A stretch of DNA of 42,956 bases from Enterobacteriaceae endosymbiont of Plateumaris sericea (GTDB lineage Bacteria > Pseudomonadota > Gammaproteobacteria > Enterobacterales > Enterobacteriaceae). The stretch spans positions 134,252 to 177,207 of the forward strand of contig NZ_CP046224.1 in the NCBI RefSeq assembly GCF_012562605.1, in the 5' to 3' direction. Within the stretch, counting starts at the first letter, position 1. The number at the start of each line of letters is the position of its first letter. This document shows, in pieces, positions 1 to 6,276 of the stretch. The notes below the pieces were generated by a model. It ran no database searches and was not told the DNA's origin. It worked only from the letters and a program-made list of their open reading frames with translations. The position numbers and the translations under genes were made by a program.

Positions 1-1776
1 ATCTAATGTTTTTTTAATTGTATATAAATCTAATTGCCAATTTTCCAAACTTTTAATAGCATTATATTTTATACCTAAAATTTTTGCATTAATTTTATAC
101 ATACCATATGTAGGAGGAAAAAATAATATTTTATCATTTTCATAATTACAAAATGTACGAATTAATAATTCTATTCCTTCATCTGCACCACGACTTACTA
201 ATATATTATCAATATTAACACCACAATAATTACTATAATTTTTAATTAATCTTTTTGGTTGAGGTTCTGGATATCTATTAAATGTATTTTTAATAAGTTT
301 TAAAATAGGTGTAATTGGTGATTCATTAGCATTTAATAAAATATGATCAAATCTACTATTATCTAATAATCTTGCTGATTGATAAGGTATTAAATTAATA
401 ATATTTTTTCTAGCTATTTTATTTATATTATTTTTATATTTATTATTATTTTGTTCTAAACAATATTTTTTTTTAATAAATTCACTTCTTAAAGTAACTG
501 CATTTTTATGACCTATTAATTTTTCTGTTTTTGACATAATTTCAACAGTATTAGATATATTTAATAACCCTTGTGGAGTTAATTCTTGAACAGTCATGCG
601 TTTCTGAAAATCAGAAACTCCTAAACTAGAATAAGTTAAAGCATGTCCATATGTTGGCAATACATGATTGGTTCCTGATGCATAATCTCCAACTGATTCT
701 GGAGCCCAATTACCTAAAAATATTGATCCAGCATTTATAATATTGGGTAATATTTTTTCATATTCATGACATTGAATCATTAAATGTTCAGGTGAATATT
801 CATTAGATATCTCTATACATTGATTAATATTTTTTGTAATTATAATATAACTATTACTAAGAGATTTTTTTATTATATTTTTTCTAGGTAAATTTATAAT
901 TTGATTATTAATTCCATTAATTACTTCTTTAGCTATTTTTTCTTCTGGAGTAAGTAAAATAACTTGAGAATCAACTCCATGTTCTGCTTGAGAAATTAAA
1001 TCAGCTATAATAAAATTAGAATAAGCAGATTTATCAGCAATTATCATTAATTCTGATGGACCAGCTGGCATATCTATAGATGTATTTTCAGTATTTTCTT
1101 TTTGATTACTAACTTGTTTTTTAGCTTCAGTAACAAATGAATTTCCTGGACCAAAAATTTTATTTACTTTTGGTACGGAATTTGTTCCAAAAGCCATAGC
1201 TGCAATAGCTTGAGCACCTCCAATTTGAAAAATTTTTTTAATTTTACATAAATCAGCAGTATATAATATTTCATTAGATATAGGTGCTGGAGAGCACATT
1301 ATAATATTTTTACATAATGCTAATTGTGCAGGAATTCCTAACATTAATACTGTAGAAAATAAAGGAGCTGTTCCTCCAGGAACATATAATCCTATAGAAT
1401 TAATAGGACGATAAATTTCCTGACAGTATACTCCAGATGTAGTTTCTATTTTTTTAGTTGTAAATATTTGATATGAATGAAATTTATGTATATTATAAAA
1501 AGCATTATCAATTGCATTTTTAATATCTTTTTTTATATTTAATTTAGCATTATTAATTTTTTCAACAGGAATTTCTAATGTATGGACTTTAATTTTATCA
1601 AATAATAAATTATAATATTCTAAAGCACTATCACCTTCCTGTTTTACTTTTTTTATAATATTTTCTACATCTTTTTTTACATTTTTATCTAAAAAAATTA
1701 CTGGTCTAGTTAATATCTTTTTTTGTTGATTTTTATTACATAAATCCCAATAAATGATATTTTTAAAAAAATTCAT
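1..1776 (-). CDS. hisDC: Fused histidinol dehydrogenase - histidinol-phosphate aminotransferase (HisD-HisC), 3' end outside window
   Basis: One open frame of 592 codons with no stop runs off the window edge. Residues 1-437 match HisD, which oxidises L-histidinol to histidine in two NAD-dependent steps. The zinc ligands Q263, H266, D364 and H423 and the catalytic pair E330-H331 are present, each four above E. coli numbering. From about residue 446 the same frame continues as HisC, the PLP-dependent aminotransferase acting on imidazole-acetol phosphate: ARKNIINLIPYQSAR at 455, LNANESP at 481, SRGADEGIELL at 528. The PLP lysine lies beyond the window. Between the domains is a short Asn/Lys-rich linker. 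HisC has no ATG, GTG or TTG near its expected start; the nearest upstream Met is M414, inside HisD. I see no ribosome site there. In E. coli hisD and hisC are separate overlapping genes. The ATG at 1776 has GGAG just upstream, inside the end of hisG. Confidence 0.93.
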   Translation of the reverse strand, partial: MNFFKNIIYWDLCNKNQQKKILTRPVIFLDKNVKKDVENIIKKVKQEGDSALEYYNLLFDKIKVHTLEIPVEKINNAKLNIKKDIKNAIDNAFYNIHKFHSYQIFTTKKIETTSGVYCQEIYRPINSIGLYVPGGTAPLFSTVLMLGIPAQLALCKNIIMCSPAPISNEILYTADLCKIKKIFQIGGAQAIAAMAFGTNSVPKVNKIFGPGNSFVTEAKKQVSNQKENTENTSIDMPAGPSELMIIADKSAYSNFIIADLISQAEHGVDSQVILLTPEEKIAKEVINGINNQIINLPRKNIIKKSLSNSYIIITKNINQCIEISNEYSPEHLMIQCHEYEKILPNIINAGSIFLGNWAPESVGDYASGTNHVLPTYGHALTYSSLGVSDFQKRMTVQELTPQGLLNISNTVEIMSKTEKLIGHKNAVTLRSEFIKKKYCLEQNNNKYKNNINKIARKNIINLIPYQSARLLDNSRFDHILLNANESPITPILKLIKNTFNRYPEPQPKRLIKNYSNYCGVNIDNILVSRGADEGIELLIRTFCNYENDKILFFPPTYGMYKINAKILGIKYNAIKSLENWQLDLYTIKKTLD

Positions 1777-1778
1777 TT

Positions 1779-2678
1779 TTACTCCATCATTTTTTCAATA
1801 GGTAAAACTAAAATTGAGCTAGCACCAAGTAATTTCAATTTTTCCATAGTTTCCCAAAATAACGTTTCACTACTTACCATATGCATAGCAACTTTATTAT
1901 TTTCTCCAGCTAAAGGTAATATTGTTGGATGTTCTGCTCCTGGTAATAAAGCAATTATTTCTTTTAATTTTTTATTAGGTGCATGTAGCATAATATATTT
2001 TGATTCTCTAGCTTTAATTACTCCTTGAATACGAGATAATAATTTATTAATTAATTTTTGTTTAATATTTATTATATTTCCATAACGTTGTATAAGGCAG
2101 GCTTTAGAAGCATATATTATTTCTACCTCTTTTAAACCATTTGCTTCTAAAGTAGCACCAGTAGAAACTAAATCACATATAGAATCTGCTAAACCTACTC
2201 TCGGAGCTAATTCTACTGAACCATTTAACATACAAGATTTAAATTTTATATTATAATTATCAAGATATCTTTTCAATAAATTTGGATATGATGTAGCAAT
2301 ACGTGTATTTTGTAAATATTTAATACCTGTATAATTTTCATCAATAGGTATTGCAATTGATAATCTACAAATGCCAAAATCTAATCTACGTAATGTTAAA
2401 TAATAAGCATTATCTCCTTTAGAATAACGAGTTAAAACTTCTTCTTCTAAAACATTTTCTCCGATAATTCCTAAATCTACAACTCTTTCCATTATTAACC
2501 CTGGTATATCATCATCACGTACCATTAAGATATCAATCGGCATATTTTCTGCAAAAGCTATTAACCGTTGTTGTTGTAAATTAACTTTAATACCACATTT
2601 TTTTAATAATTCACGAGAATCATCACTTAAACGACCAGATTTTTGCATAGCTATGCGTAACCGATTGTTATCTAACAT
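1779..2678 (-). CDS. hisG: ATP phosphoribosyltransferase HisG
   Basis: HisG makes phosphoribosyl-ATP from ATP and PRPP, the committed step of histidine synthesis. The protein has 299 residues, exactly the E. coli length, and is collinear throughout: [15 protein letters not shown] near the N-terminus, [20 protein letters not shown] in the catalytic domain, [13 protein letters not shown] in the PRPP-binding region, and a C-terminal regulatory domain ending [11 protein letters not shown]. This is the long, histidine-inhibited form that needs no HisZ. The start at 2678 is supported by AGGA about nine bases upstream. It is the first gene of a leftward his operon and ends two bases before hisDC. 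I found no leader peptide with a histidine run in the 186 bases upstream, so the classical his attenuator appears to be absent. Confidence 0.98.
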
Positions 2679-2864
2679 GATTTATCGTCCTTTTATTTTT
2701 ATTTATAATGTTTTAAATTCGTCTGTTTATATTAAATATATCAGGTATTTATTATAAAAATAAAAATTTATTTAAAATATATTATGAATATTTATACCAA
2801 AATTATAAATAACAATATTTAAATATATTTAACTTAAATTAAACAAATTATTAAAAAATAACAA
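2679..2864. other. Spacer between rnhA and hisG
   Basis: This AT-rich spacer of 186 bases must hold the hisG promoter (leftward) and the end of the rnhA transcript. I see TATAAT-like strings but no convincing -35 element, no his leader peptide and no strong hairpin. Confidence 0.5.
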
Positions 2865-3359
2865 CTATTTTTTAAAAGAATTTTTTTCTTTTTTTATTAT
2901 ATTAATATATCCAATATCTTGATAATTAGGATTTTTAGCAGAAAAACGAGCTAATTGGTCACATTTTTCATTTTCAATGTTTCCAGTATGTCCTTTAATC
3001 CAATACCAATGAATATCATGATTAATTAATGCTAAATCTAATCTTTTCCATAAATCAATATTTTTTACCGGTTTTTTATTAGAACACATCCATCCATATT
3101 TTTTCCATTTATGTATCCAAGTAGTTATACCTTTTTTTAAGTATTTACTATCAGTAATAATATTTATATTAAAATATTCTTTTAAAGATTCTAATGCTAT
3201 AATGGAAGCCATTAATTCCATTCTATTATTTGTAGTAAAAAAAAAACCTTGCGTAAAAATTTTTTCATGGGAATAATACTTTATTATAGCAGCATATCCT
3301 CCAGGTCCTGGATTATAAAGACAAGAACCATCAGTAAAAATTTTTATATTTTTGTACAT
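2865..3359 (-). CDS. rnhA: Ribonuclease HI
   Basis: RNase HI cuts the RNA strand of RNA-DNA hybrids, removing R-loops and primer remnants. At 164 residues it is slightly longer than the 155 of E. coli. The acidic active-site residues fall at exactly the E. coli positions: D10 (FTDGSC), E48 (NNRMELM), D70 (IITDSKY) and D134, with the catalytic-loop histidine H124 (IKGHTG). The Lys/Trp-rich handle ([10 protein letters not shown]) is kept. The extra C-terminal residues are lysine-rich and look like an AT-drift extension. It is divergent from dnaQ with 47 bases between starts, the ancestral enterobacterial arrangement. Identification is secure. Confidence 0.98.
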
Positions 3360-3406
3360 ATATTAATTCTCTATATAAATTTATAAATATATATTAAAAA
3401 CAAATT

Positions 3407-4129
3407 ATGAATAAATTAAATTTTCGTCAAATAGTTTTAGATACAGAAACAACAGGAATAAATTCTTCTCCTCCTTATTATAAAGGACATCGTATTATAG
3501 AAATAGGTGGAGTAGAAATAATAAATCGTCGTGTTACAGGAAATAATTTCCATGTATATATTAATCCTAAAAAAACAATAAGTTTAGAAGCATTAAATAT
3601 TCATGGTATTACTAATAAATTTTTATGTGATAAACCTACATTTAGTCAAATTATAAATGATTTTTTAAATTATATAAATAATTCTGAATTAATTATTCAT
3701 AATGCTCAATTTGATATTGATTTTATCAATTATGAATTATCTCTATTAAAAAAAAATATACCTAACATTGAAAAAAATTGTTCTATAATAGATACATTAA
3801 AAATATCTCGTAAATTATTTCCAGGAAAACGTAATTCTTTAAATTCATTATGTTCACGTTTTAATATTGATAAAAGTAATCGTACTATGCATGGAGCTTT
3901 ATTAGATGCCAAACTTTTAGCTAATGTTTTTTTATCTATGACTAGTATTCAAAATTCATTTATATTAGAATTTTCAAAAAAGAATATGGTAGATAAAAAT
4001 GATATTTTAAAAAAAAAAATAATAAAGAAAAAATTATTAGTATTATATCCTTCTAAAGAAGAATATGAATCACATTATTTAAAATTAGATATTATTAAAA
4101 AAAAATGTGGTTTTCATTTATGGAATTAA
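3407..4129 (+). CDS. dnaQ: DNA polymerase III epsilon subunit (3'-5' proofreading exonuclease)
   Basis: DnaQ is the proofreading exonuclease of the replicative polymerase core. It has 240 residues against 243 in E. coli. All catalytic residues keep E. coli numbering: D12 and E14 (LDTETTG), D103 (QFDIDF), H162 and D167 (MHGALLDA). The C-terminal tail that contacts the polymerase alpha subunit is shorter and lysine-rich but still ends in a recognisable KKCGFHLWN. Proofreading therefore looks intact, which matters because MutS elsewhere in the window looks weakened. There is no clear Shine-Dalgarno motif before the ATG. The gene lies divergent from rnhA and upstream of tRNA-Asp, as in E. coli, where dnaQ is followed by aspV. 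Confidence 0.98.
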   Translation: MNKLNFRQIVLDTETTGINSSPPYYKGHRIIEIGGVEIINRRVTGNNFHVYINPKKTISLEALNIHGITNKFLCDKPTFSQIINDFLNYINNSELIIHNAQFDIDFINYELSLLKKNIPNIEKNCSIIDTLKISRKLFPGKRNSLNSLCSRFNIDKSNRTMHGALLDAKLLANVFLSMTSIQNSFILEFSKKNMVDKNDILKKKIIKKKLLVLYPSKEEYESHYLKLDIIKKKCGFHLWN

Positions 4130-4152
4130 TTAAAAAAATTTAAATAAAAGTA

Positions 4153-4180
4153 TTGACGATATTAACATATAATTTATAAT
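4153..4180 (+). promoter_or_regulatory. Sigma-70 promoter of tRNA-Asp
   Basis: TTGACG at 4153-4158 and TATAAT at 4175-4180 are separated by 16 bases, a near-consensus pair placed about 15 bases before the tRNA. It is among the best promoters visible in the window, so the tRNA is probably transcribed independently of dnaQ. Confidence 0.8.
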
Positions 4181-4194
4181 ATAATTATATTATA

Positions 4195-4268
4195 GGTGCG
4201 ATAGTTCAGTTGGTTAGAATACCGGCCTGTCACGTCGGGGGTCACGGGTTCAAGTCCCGTTCGCACCG
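4195..4268 (+). tRNA. tRNA-Asp (anticodon GTC)
   Basis: This is a 74-base cloverleaf closely matching E. coli tRNA-Asp. The acceptor arm GGTGCGA pairs with TCGCACC, the anticodon GTC is at 4229-4231 in a CCGGC/GTCGG stem, the T arm carries GGTTCAAGTCC, and the discriminator base is G. The 3' CCA is not encoded (the next bases are TGA), so CCA must be added by a tRNA nucleotidyltransferase, unlike tRNA-Asn later in the window. Its place after dnaQ matches aspV in E. coli. Confidence 0.97.
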
Positions 4269-4279
4269 TGATAAAAACT

Positions 4280-4307
4280 AAAATAATATTTTTCATAATA
4301 TTATTTT
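4280..4307. terminator. AT-only stem-loop between tRNA-Asp and mscS
   Basis: AAAATAATATT at 4280-4290 and AATATTATTTT at 4297-4307 form a perfect 11-bp stem with a 6-base loop. It lies just after tRNA-Asp and overlaps the mscS stop codon on the other strand, so it could end transcription from both sides. There is no GC core, so terminator function is inferred from position and symmetry. Confidence 0.55.
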
Positions 4308-5082
4308 AATTATTATTAATCCATAATACACAGGAATTTTTATATAATTCTAAATTATGTTTAATAATATTCGTTAAATCAGAACATATTTCTTTTTTAT
4401 AAAGAAAATTACTAATCCAAAAAAAAACTGTAAGATTTATTGAAATATTATTAATTTCATCTATAATAACAATTATTTTAGAATTTTTAATTATTCTTTG
4501 ATCTAAATAGATTGTATCCAATAATATTTTTTTTATCATATTTAAATCTTCACTAATTAATAATCGAGAAAGTCCTAAAGTAATTTTATTACGATATTCA
4601 TGACATTGAGAAAGATTAGTAATATTATCTGCTAATATTTTACCATTAGGTATTAATGTAATAATACCATCAAATGTTTTTAACTGAGTAGAAAAAATTT
4701 CTACTTTAGTTACTTGACCACTAATATTACAAACATTTATATAATCACCTATTTCAAATATACGAAAAGTAATAATTAATAATCCAGATGCTAAATTTGA
4801 TAATGCACTTTGCCAAGCTAAACCAATAACAATACTTATTGTACCAAAAGCAGCAATTATTGATGCTGTATGTACACCTATATTACTTAATAGACTAACT
4901 ATAGTAAAAATTACAATAAGATACTTTAAAATATTTGAAATAAATCCTATAGCAATAGGATCTATTTTTTTTACAATAAAAATATTATATATAATTTTTG
5001 CAAGTAAACGAATTATTAATAATTCAGTTAATAAAATACAACTTGATGTTAGTATATGTAATAATTGATAAGAAATAAACAT
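4306..5082 (-). CDS. mscS: Small-conductance mechanosensitive channel MscS
   Basis: MscS is an inner-membrane channel that opens under membrane tension to release solutes during osmotic downshock. The 258-residue protein is shorter than the 286 of E. coli, mainly by loss of N-terminal residues before TM1 and of the C-terminal tail. TM1 and TM2 occupy roughly residues 5-75. The pore helix TM3 and its continuation are recognisable (IGLAWQSALSNLASGLLI), followed by the beta domain (LIPNGKILADNITNLS). At the TM3 kink the family glycine (G113 in E. coli, LQG) is serine (WQS), and L111 is tryptophan. The gene follows fbaA on the same strand after 114 bases, as in the E. coli pgk-fbaA-mscS cluster. 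Function is probably kept, but gating may differ. Confidence 0.92.
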   Translation of the reverse strand: MFISYQLLHILTSSCILLTELLIIRLLAKIIYNIFIVKKIDPIAIGFISNILKYLIVIFTIVSLLSNIGVHTASIIAAFGTISIVIGLAWQSALSNLASGLLIITFRIFEIGDYINVCNISGQVTKVEIFSTQLKTFDGIITLIPNGKILADNITNLSQCHEYRNKITLGLSRLLISEDLNMIKKILLDTIYLDQRIIKNSKIIVIIDEINNISINLTVFFWISNFLYKKEICSDLTNIIKHNLELYKNSCVLWINNN

Positions 5083-5125
5083 TTTATTATATATAATCCT
5101 ATTTACATTAAAAATAATAATTTAT

Positions 5126-5155
5126 TTATTATTATATATATATATATAATAATAA
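5126..5155. terminator. Perfect 30-bp AT palindrome downstream of fbaA
   Basis: Fifteen-base arms centred between 5140 and 5141 are perfectly complementary. The core is a TA dinucleotide run flanked by TTATTATTA / TAATAATAA. It sits after the fbaA stop on the fbaA strand and before mscS, so it may be a terminator or attenuator in the tktA-pgk-fbaA-mscS transcript, or a cruciform-forming site. Confidence 0.45.
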
Positions 5156-5164
5156 GATATTATT

Positions 5165-5182
5165 ATTGTTATATATAACAAT
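5165..5182. repeat. Perfect 18-bp palindrome next to the fbaA stop
   Basis: ATTGTTATA followed by TATAACAAT is perfectly self-complementary with no spacer and contains one GC pair per arm. It is the first of two tandem palindromes between fbaA and mscS. Confidence 0.45.
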
Positions 5183-5196
5183 TATAAAGAAATATA

Positions 5197-6276
5197 TTAT
5201 AATATATTTATAGCATTTAATTCTTGAAAAGTTTTTTCTAATCTTTTTCCCATTGATATTTGAGATGCTCTAATCCATGATCTTGGATCATAATATTTTT
5301 TATTTGGTTTATTTAAACCTTCTGGATTACCTAATTGTGTTTGTAAATATTTTTTATGTTCTTTATAAAAGTTTAATATTCCTTCCCAACTTGCCCATTG
5401 AGTATCTGTATCAATATTCATTTTAACTACACCATAATTTATAGATTCTTTAATTTCTTTTTCAGACGACCCTGAACCTCCATGAAAAACAAAATTTATA
5501 GGATTATGAATTAAATTATGTTTTTTACTTATAAAATTTTGTGAATATTTTAAAATTTTAGGTAATAATTTTACATTTCCTGATTTATATACACCATGTA
5601 CATTACCAAATGAAGCAGCAATTATAAATTGAGAACTAATAGAATTTAACTTTTCATAAGCATAATTAACATCTTTAGGATCAGTATATAATGATTTTTT
5701 TTCTAAATTACTATTATCTAAACCGTCTTCTTCTCCTCCTGTACATCCTAATTCTATCTCTAATGTTATATTCATTTTAGACATTCTTTTAAAATATTTA
5801 CTACATATATCAATATTATCTTGTATAGAATTTTTTGATAAATCAATCATATGAGAAGAAAATAAAGGCTTGCCATTTAATAAATAAAATTTTTCATTTT
5901 CATCTAATAATCCATCTATCCAAGATAAAGTTTTTTTAGAACAATGATCTGTATGTAATATTACTGGTATTCCATAATATTGAGCAATTTTATGTACATG
6001 ATGTGCTCCAGATATTGCTCCTATAATAGATGCTAATGGAGAATTTTGAATTTGTAATTTTTTACCTGCAATAAAAGAAGCACCACCAATAGAAAATTGA
6101 ATAATTACTGGAGATTTAACTTTAGCTGCTGTTTCTAAAACTATATTGATAGAATCAGTACCTATACAATTTATTGCAGGTAAAGCAAATTTATTTTCTT
6201 TTGCTATTTTAAATATAGTTTGTACATCATGACTAACAACAACACCTGGTTTTACATAATTTAAAATTTTAGACAT
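5197..6276 (-). CDS. fbaA: Fructose-bisphosphate aldolase, class II
   Basis: FbaA reversibly splits fructose 1,6-bisphosphate into dihydroxyacetone phosphate and glyceraldehyde 3-phosphate using zinc. It has 359 residues, the same length as E. coli FbaA. The catalytic aspartate and a zinc histidine are in HTDHCSKKTL (D110, H111). The second zinc-site segment ELGCTGGEEDG, the FGNVHGVYK histidine and the FHGGSGSSEKEI phosphate-binding segment are all present. It lies 31 bases after pgk on the same strand, in the ancestral pgk-fbaA order, so the two are almost certainly co-transcribed with tktA. Confidence 0.98.
   Translation of the reverse strand: MSKILNYVKPGVVVSHDVQTIFKIAKENKFALPAINCIGTDSINIVLETAAKVKSPVIIQFSIGGASFIAGKKLQIQNSPLASIIGAISGAHHVHKIAQYYGIPVILHTDHCSKKTLSWIDGLLDENEKFYLLNGKPLFSSHMIDLSKNSIQDNIDICSKYFKRMSKMNITLEIELGCTGGEEDGLDNSNLEKKSLYTDPKDVNYAYEKLNSISSQFIIAASFGNVHGVYKSGNVKLLPKILKYSQNFISKKHNLIHNPINFVFHGGSGSSEKEIKESINYGVVKMNIDTDTQWASWEGILNFYKEHKKYLQTQLGNPEGLNKPNKKYYDPRSWIRASQISMGKRLEKTFQELNAINIL

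Follow-up and report, generated by a model that had tools for sequence, protein, structure and literature searches.

Histidinol dehydrogenase (HisD) and histidinol-phosphate aminotransferase (HisC) are predicted to be made by the endosymbiont of Plateumaris sericea as one polypeptide of about 800 residues, and it is highly probable (we would put the probability at about 90 per cent) that this is so and that the joined enzyme had a single origin, through loss of a stop codon in a common ancestor of the reed-beetle symbionts sampled. From the sequence comparisons we infer two active halves and a single protein as the main product. The DNA analysed (the window) is a stretch of 42,956 nucleotides (G000:C1:134252-177207), and the genus sample consisted of 24 genomes (G000, the genome of the window, to G023). 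In G010, the closest relative with a gap-free gene, the fused protein has 804 residues.

The frame begins with an ATG on the minus strand and is open up to the window edge (1776..1, 592 codons), which confirms the initial annotation in this respect. The upstream gene of the his operon, hisG (1779..2678, minus strand, NCBIfam match), ends 2 bases from this ATG. The HisD half, residues 1-430 (487..1776, minus strand), was delimited by TIGR00069, which matched residues 37-430 with 500.1 bits (cut-off 243.8), and by alignment with E. coli HisD (1k75), which extended over residues 4-430 of the G010 protein. It is followed by a junction of 21 residues (431-451; 424..486, minus strand), which was bounded by the E. 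coli alignments and aligns with neither E. coli HisD nor E. coli HisC. Judged by length, about 8 of these residues represent the HisD tail and about 6 the start of HisC; about 7 are extra, and the earlier estimate of a linker of roughly ten residues was a fair one. In the window the linker is rich in Lys and Asn and contains neither a stop nor an ATG, GTG or TTG codon. The first such in-frame start codon past H423 is 136 codons on, within the HisC core, exactly as had been claimed. The linker includes a run of nine A residues (466..474, minus strand, by sequence count); no other homopolymer in the window's share of the fusion gene reaches a length of 8. The HisC half starts at residue 452 and is cut by the window edge at residue 592 (1..423, minus strand). 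TIGR01141 matched this piece from residue 456 with 107.3 bits, below the cut-off of 276.55, because the window edge truncates HisC. When the pieces on the two sides of the adjoining scaffold gap were taken together, the score was 368.7 bits, and the description of a complete HisD followed by HisC in one frame was borne out for both domains.

The gene does not end at the window edge. Immediately adjacent to window base 1 there is a scaffold gap of 95 N (G000:C1:134157-134251), and beyond it (G000:C1:134156 and below) the same frame continues to the hisC stop. The flanks of the gap are the same 82 bases, with one mismatch. Gap and repeat add up to 177 bases or 59 codons, which is exactly the excess of the open frame of G000 (863 codons) over that of G010 (804 codons). 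The gap is therefore very probably an unmerged assembly overlap and the G000 gene full length. The interruption of the window's copy by an N gap between overlapping, unmerged flanks, together with the ambiguous bases present in the G002 assembly, might raise the suspicion that the joined frame is an assembly or sequencing error. However, the junction (424-486) is clear of the gap, and the same fusion was found in the other 23 assemblies, 22 of which have no ambiguous bases. Because none of these 23 genomes has such a gap, the probability that the fusion was created by chance or error is negligible, and this source was ruled out.

In all 24 genomes of the genus hisD lies within a stop-free frame of 802-869 codons, and TIGR01141 is over its cut-off, always in the fused frame; the domain pair is thus joined in every sister symbiont of the sample. 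No second TIGR01141 match over the cut-off was found in any of the 24 genomes. A second HisC elsewhere was ruled out also for G000, in which the PF00155 matches beyond the fusion were PatB, SufS and GlyA only. The window protein is 93% identical to that of G010, and among the matches listed the nearest named protein was that of the Plateumaris braccata Enterobacteriaceae endosymbiont (86% identity to the G010 query); next came proteins from the symbionts of several Donacia hosts.

The alignment comprised the 23 relatives apart from G000, among them G002 despite its ambiguous bases, and all of them matched both TIGR00069 (E up to 1e-60) and TIGR01141. Residues Q263, H266, D364 and H423 of the G010 protein align with Q259, H262, D360 and H419 of E. 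coli HisD, which we take to be the zinc ligands, and E330 and H331 align with E326 and H327, presumably the catalytic residues. These six positions were invariant in all 23 relatives, consistent with the earlier claim that the zinc ligands and the catalytic Glu-His pair are present. In the HisC half, K661 of G010 aligns with K214 of E. coli HisC and is presumably the PLP lysine; this residue and Y502, N604, D631, Y634, R669 and R782, which we take to be its partner residues, were likewise invariant (23/23). Mean pairwise identity over the 24 genomes was 73% for HisD, 68% for HisC and 41% for the linker, which occurred in seven different lengths with the frame kept in every one.

To these figures can be added the dN/dS values of 11 hand-picked close pairs, in which G000 was represented by the window part only: 0.135-0.321 for HisD and 0.130-0.417 for HisC (window against G010: 0.216 and 0.158, respectively). 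They point to purifying selection on both halves. The values also bear on the question whether the HisC half might be a decaying remnant carried behind HisD. In favor of decay, the accessible text of PMC7289800 describes hisC as missing and replaced by other aminotransferases, and HisC dN/dS was above HisD dN/dS in 6 of the 11 pairs. Yet HisC dN/dS did not leave the range given above, the catalytic residues are invariant in 23/23 relatives, and a copy over the curated cut-off is present in every genus genome (24/24). We regard decay as very improbable.

A different objection is that the frame is fused but HisD and HisC are nevertheless made in quantity as two products. This could happen if HisC began internally, at an unusual codon or at an ATG found in few species, or if the polymerase slipped on the A-runs of the linker, in which case a share of the messages would end just after HisD. 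Runs of 8 or more A residues are present in 18 of the 24 linkers (nine in the window, the longest, 18, in G004); in the window a slipped frame would close 1 or 4 codons further on, with HisD complete, and in 7/24 genomes an ATG or TTG lies in frame in the interval from H423 to the PY motif of HisC. However, 17/24 genomes have no standard start codon in that interval, the window has none for the 136 codons mentioned above, and a shared internal ATG, located in each case at the same place 10 codons before the PY motif, was found in 4/24 only. Because no run of 8 or more exists in 6/24 linkers, and the HisD part also has such runs in 21/24 genomes, we consider production of two proteins in quantity unlikely, although the linker A-runs could give rise to some truncated product. 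The statement in the initial annotation that HisC is made only within the fusion is thus strong for the window and weaker for the genus as a whole, where 7/24 linkers hold an ATG or TTG.

Some of the A-runs in the coding sequence are very long, for example those in the linkers of G003 (12), G004 (18) and G009 (12), among others. In a hand count over the 24 genes the linkers contained 20 runs of 8 or more, the HisD parts 65 and the HisC parts 42; per base, the density is about three times higher in the linker.

The initial annotation knew of no described HisD-HisC fusion. As a sequence the pair is known. The suggested database search for the domain pair scored 7,994 candidate proteins, and among the best 120 of these, both Pfam domains were present in 119, of which 11 belong to reed-beetle symbionts (including the window's own protein and one assigned by identity) and 108 come from elsewhere. 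The matches listed include proteins of Xenorhabdus, Sodalis, Shewanella, Bacteroidota and others. As regards the literature the claim stood: a search that was thin on subscription journals found no paper describing a HisD-HisC fusion. In the accessible part of PMC1963479 hisC does not occur, and in that of PMC3896937 the 'hisDC' mentions refer to the hisDCB operon or to C. glutamicum HisD, not to a fusion.

Fusions were seen also at the level of loci and genomes. Among the best 80 of 573 named loci, 6 were fused, a proportion that cannot be read as a rate, since the selection favors in-frame neighbours. All six are from metagenome-assembled genomes (three Bacteroidota and one each labelled Proteobacteria, Ktedonobacteria and Bacillota). 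In a survey of the family, 335 of 392 genomes matched. The own genus accounts for 5 of the 335, and at least 4 of the other 330 carry a fusion (G404, G278, G206 and G195). At least 34 family matches span both domains: the 5 from the own genus, at least 4 fused ones and at least 25 in which the two domains share a frame that is broken by between one and three stops. A tree was built from 52 sequences, including 8 of the 24 reed-beetle symbionts, and the reed-beetle sequences formed one clade with a support of 1.000. The other fusions were spread over some five additional positions, in most cases close to unfused relatives; those of P0016, P0017 and P0026 grouped together. Support was weak for the sister of the reed-beetle clade (0.63), for the position of the Sodalis fusion (0.58 and 0.04) and for the grouping of G404 with G345 (0.45). 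The fusions of less reduced relatives (G404, G278, G206, G195, P0012-P0015 and P0026) stand apart in the tree, and in the genera of G404/G278 and of G206 some species are unfused.

A fusion unique to reed-beetle symbionts was ruled out by these database, family and tree results. The scatter of fusions over the tree, with unfused relatives nearby, suggests that the loss of one stop is an easy step that has been taken repeatedly. What sets the reed-beetle symbionts apart is fixation through the genus, 24/24 genomes against at least 4 fusions in the 330 other matching genomes of the family.

The separate hisD and hisC genes of Enterobacterales have the same order as the two halves of the fusion and 50-56% best-segment identity to them (enteric matches listed), but there is a stop between them, often with a 4-base overlap. 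The most probable route to the fused gene starts from such neighbours in a gammaproteobacterial his operon, between which the stop (and, if needed, the frame difference) would have been lost a single time, before the sampled reed-beetle symbionts diverged. Once hisC was without a start and a ribosome site of its own, restoration would need several simultaneous changes. We think that the fusion was kept mainly by this ratchet in a shrinking genome, which is the simpler account of its fixation. Passing of substrate between the halves was set aside as an unlikely reason for the fusion: HisC catalyzes step 7 and histidinol dehydrogenase steps 9-10 of the pathway, and the phosphatase step of HisNB falls between the two reactions. 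According to the estimate quoted in PMC7289800, the hosts of these symbionts diversified over 75-100 million years, and the fusion, common to all 24 examined genomes, would be a dated case, in which the ratchet idea can be set against the scattered fusions of free-living relatives.

In an AlphaFold2 model of the P. braccata symbiont protein (46 sequences) both halves were confident domains (mean pLDDT 90.1), and a helix (421-444) extended from HisD into the linker. The pTM of 0.63 leaves the relative placement of the two domains loose. Foldseek matched the halves to HisD (1kae/1k75) and HisC (1fg3/1gex), respectively. HisD and HisC are both homodimeric enzymes, here connected by a short linker.

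Several known systems resemble the fusion in part. HisNB of gammaproteobacteria (histidinol-phosphatase and IGP dehydratase), which is present in this very operon, is also an in-frame fusion of two his-operon genes for non-adjacent steps; it joins other partners and is well described (PMC8305728 and PMC3896937, accessible parts), in contrast to the scattered HisD-HisC proteins. HIS4 (HisIE-HisD) of fungi similarly has HisD as a component of a bigger histidine enzyme, about 800 residues long (PMC1963479, accessible part), but it is eukaryotic, has HisD at the C-terminal side, joined to HisIE, and lacks HisC. The scattered fusions (Xenorhabdus sp. TCT-1, Sodalis sp. Ffu, Shewanella marina, Bacteroidota and others) have both Pfam domains in one protein. 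The 108 listed are 764-921 residues long, 105 of them between 772 and 856, and one bears the UniRef name 'Multifunctional fusion protein'. Unlike the reed-beetle proteins they fall outside that clade, with unfused relatives nearby and some placements weak.

In the window's genome the operon consists of hisG-hisDC-hisNB-hisH-hisA-hisF-hisIE, and every gene is over an NCBIfam cut-off. Since the fusion supplies HisC and the other his genes of the operon pass their cut-offs, the predicted histidine pathway is complete with the fusion; it is without step 7 if the fusion is ignored. No Rfam match to a his leader was found upstream of hisG (window 1-6000, E up to 1), where the search gave one tRNA and two sub-threshold matches only.

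Reis et al. 2020 (PMC7289800, accessible text) reported five genes, including hisC and argD, as absent from otherwise complete pathways, and proposed that their roles are taken over by other aminotransferases of the symbiont or the host; annotation was by RAST, with KO identifiers assigned via BlastKOALA. Because the his operon is complete with the fusion, we infer that the published hisC gap is an annotation miss, in which the HisC half was hidden by labels that allow one name per gene. Among the listed reed-beetle proteins named by source (n = 9), eight carry the name 'histidinol dehydrogenase' and the ninth that of 'histidinol-phosphate transaminase'. Histidine genes are among those raised in larvae (PMC12508126), and the accessible main text of that paper makes no mention of hisC or hisD. 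For argD the situation is different: no PF00202 (class III) match was found in G000, while 14/14 control genomes had such matches, and it looks as if in G000 the published absence holds for argD and does not hold for hisC. At the sequence level the histidine pathway of this nutritional symbiont thus loses its published gap, and the HisC step can be explained without recourse to an enzyme of the host or a substitute. The case suggests that annotation with one name per gene can hide fused genes and that other 'missing' genes of reduced genomes are worth the same check.

Four aminotransferase families were searched in G000. The only likely transaminases were the HisC half (PF00155), one PF01063 member, which is probably IlvE, and SerC; the other matches were PatB, GlyA, SufS, an IscS-like protein (below its NCBIfam cut-off) and cystathionine gamma-synthase. 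The HisC half is the sole class I transaminase found in G000. Genus-wide, the other PF00155 matches of at least 95 bits were PatB-like frames in 6/24 genomes only, and the remaining matches, to which an identity was assigned in G000 only, scored about 53 bits or less. It is conceivable, though doubtful, that the HisC half serves as the all-purpose aminotransferase of these symbionts. By analogy it may replace tyrB, because some HisC enzymes (Thermotoga maritima, Bacillus subtilis) accept aromatic amino acids as well; in the accessible text of the same source (PMC9309667) such activity is not known for E. coli HisC. If true, synthesis of tyrosine and phenylalanine could likewise run through the fused enzyme, which would substitute for the missing tyrB and perhaps, in the lysine pathway, for argD.

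A PF01063 match was missing in two of the 24 genomes (G002 and G020), which fits the reported loss of ilvE in two Macroplea symbionts (PMC7289800, accessible text). In G008 the PF01063 gene, probably ilvE, is in two pieces with a stop (G008:C1:192811-193507), whereas it is uninterrupted in 21 other genomes; this may represent decay, a gene rescued by slippage or an assembly error.
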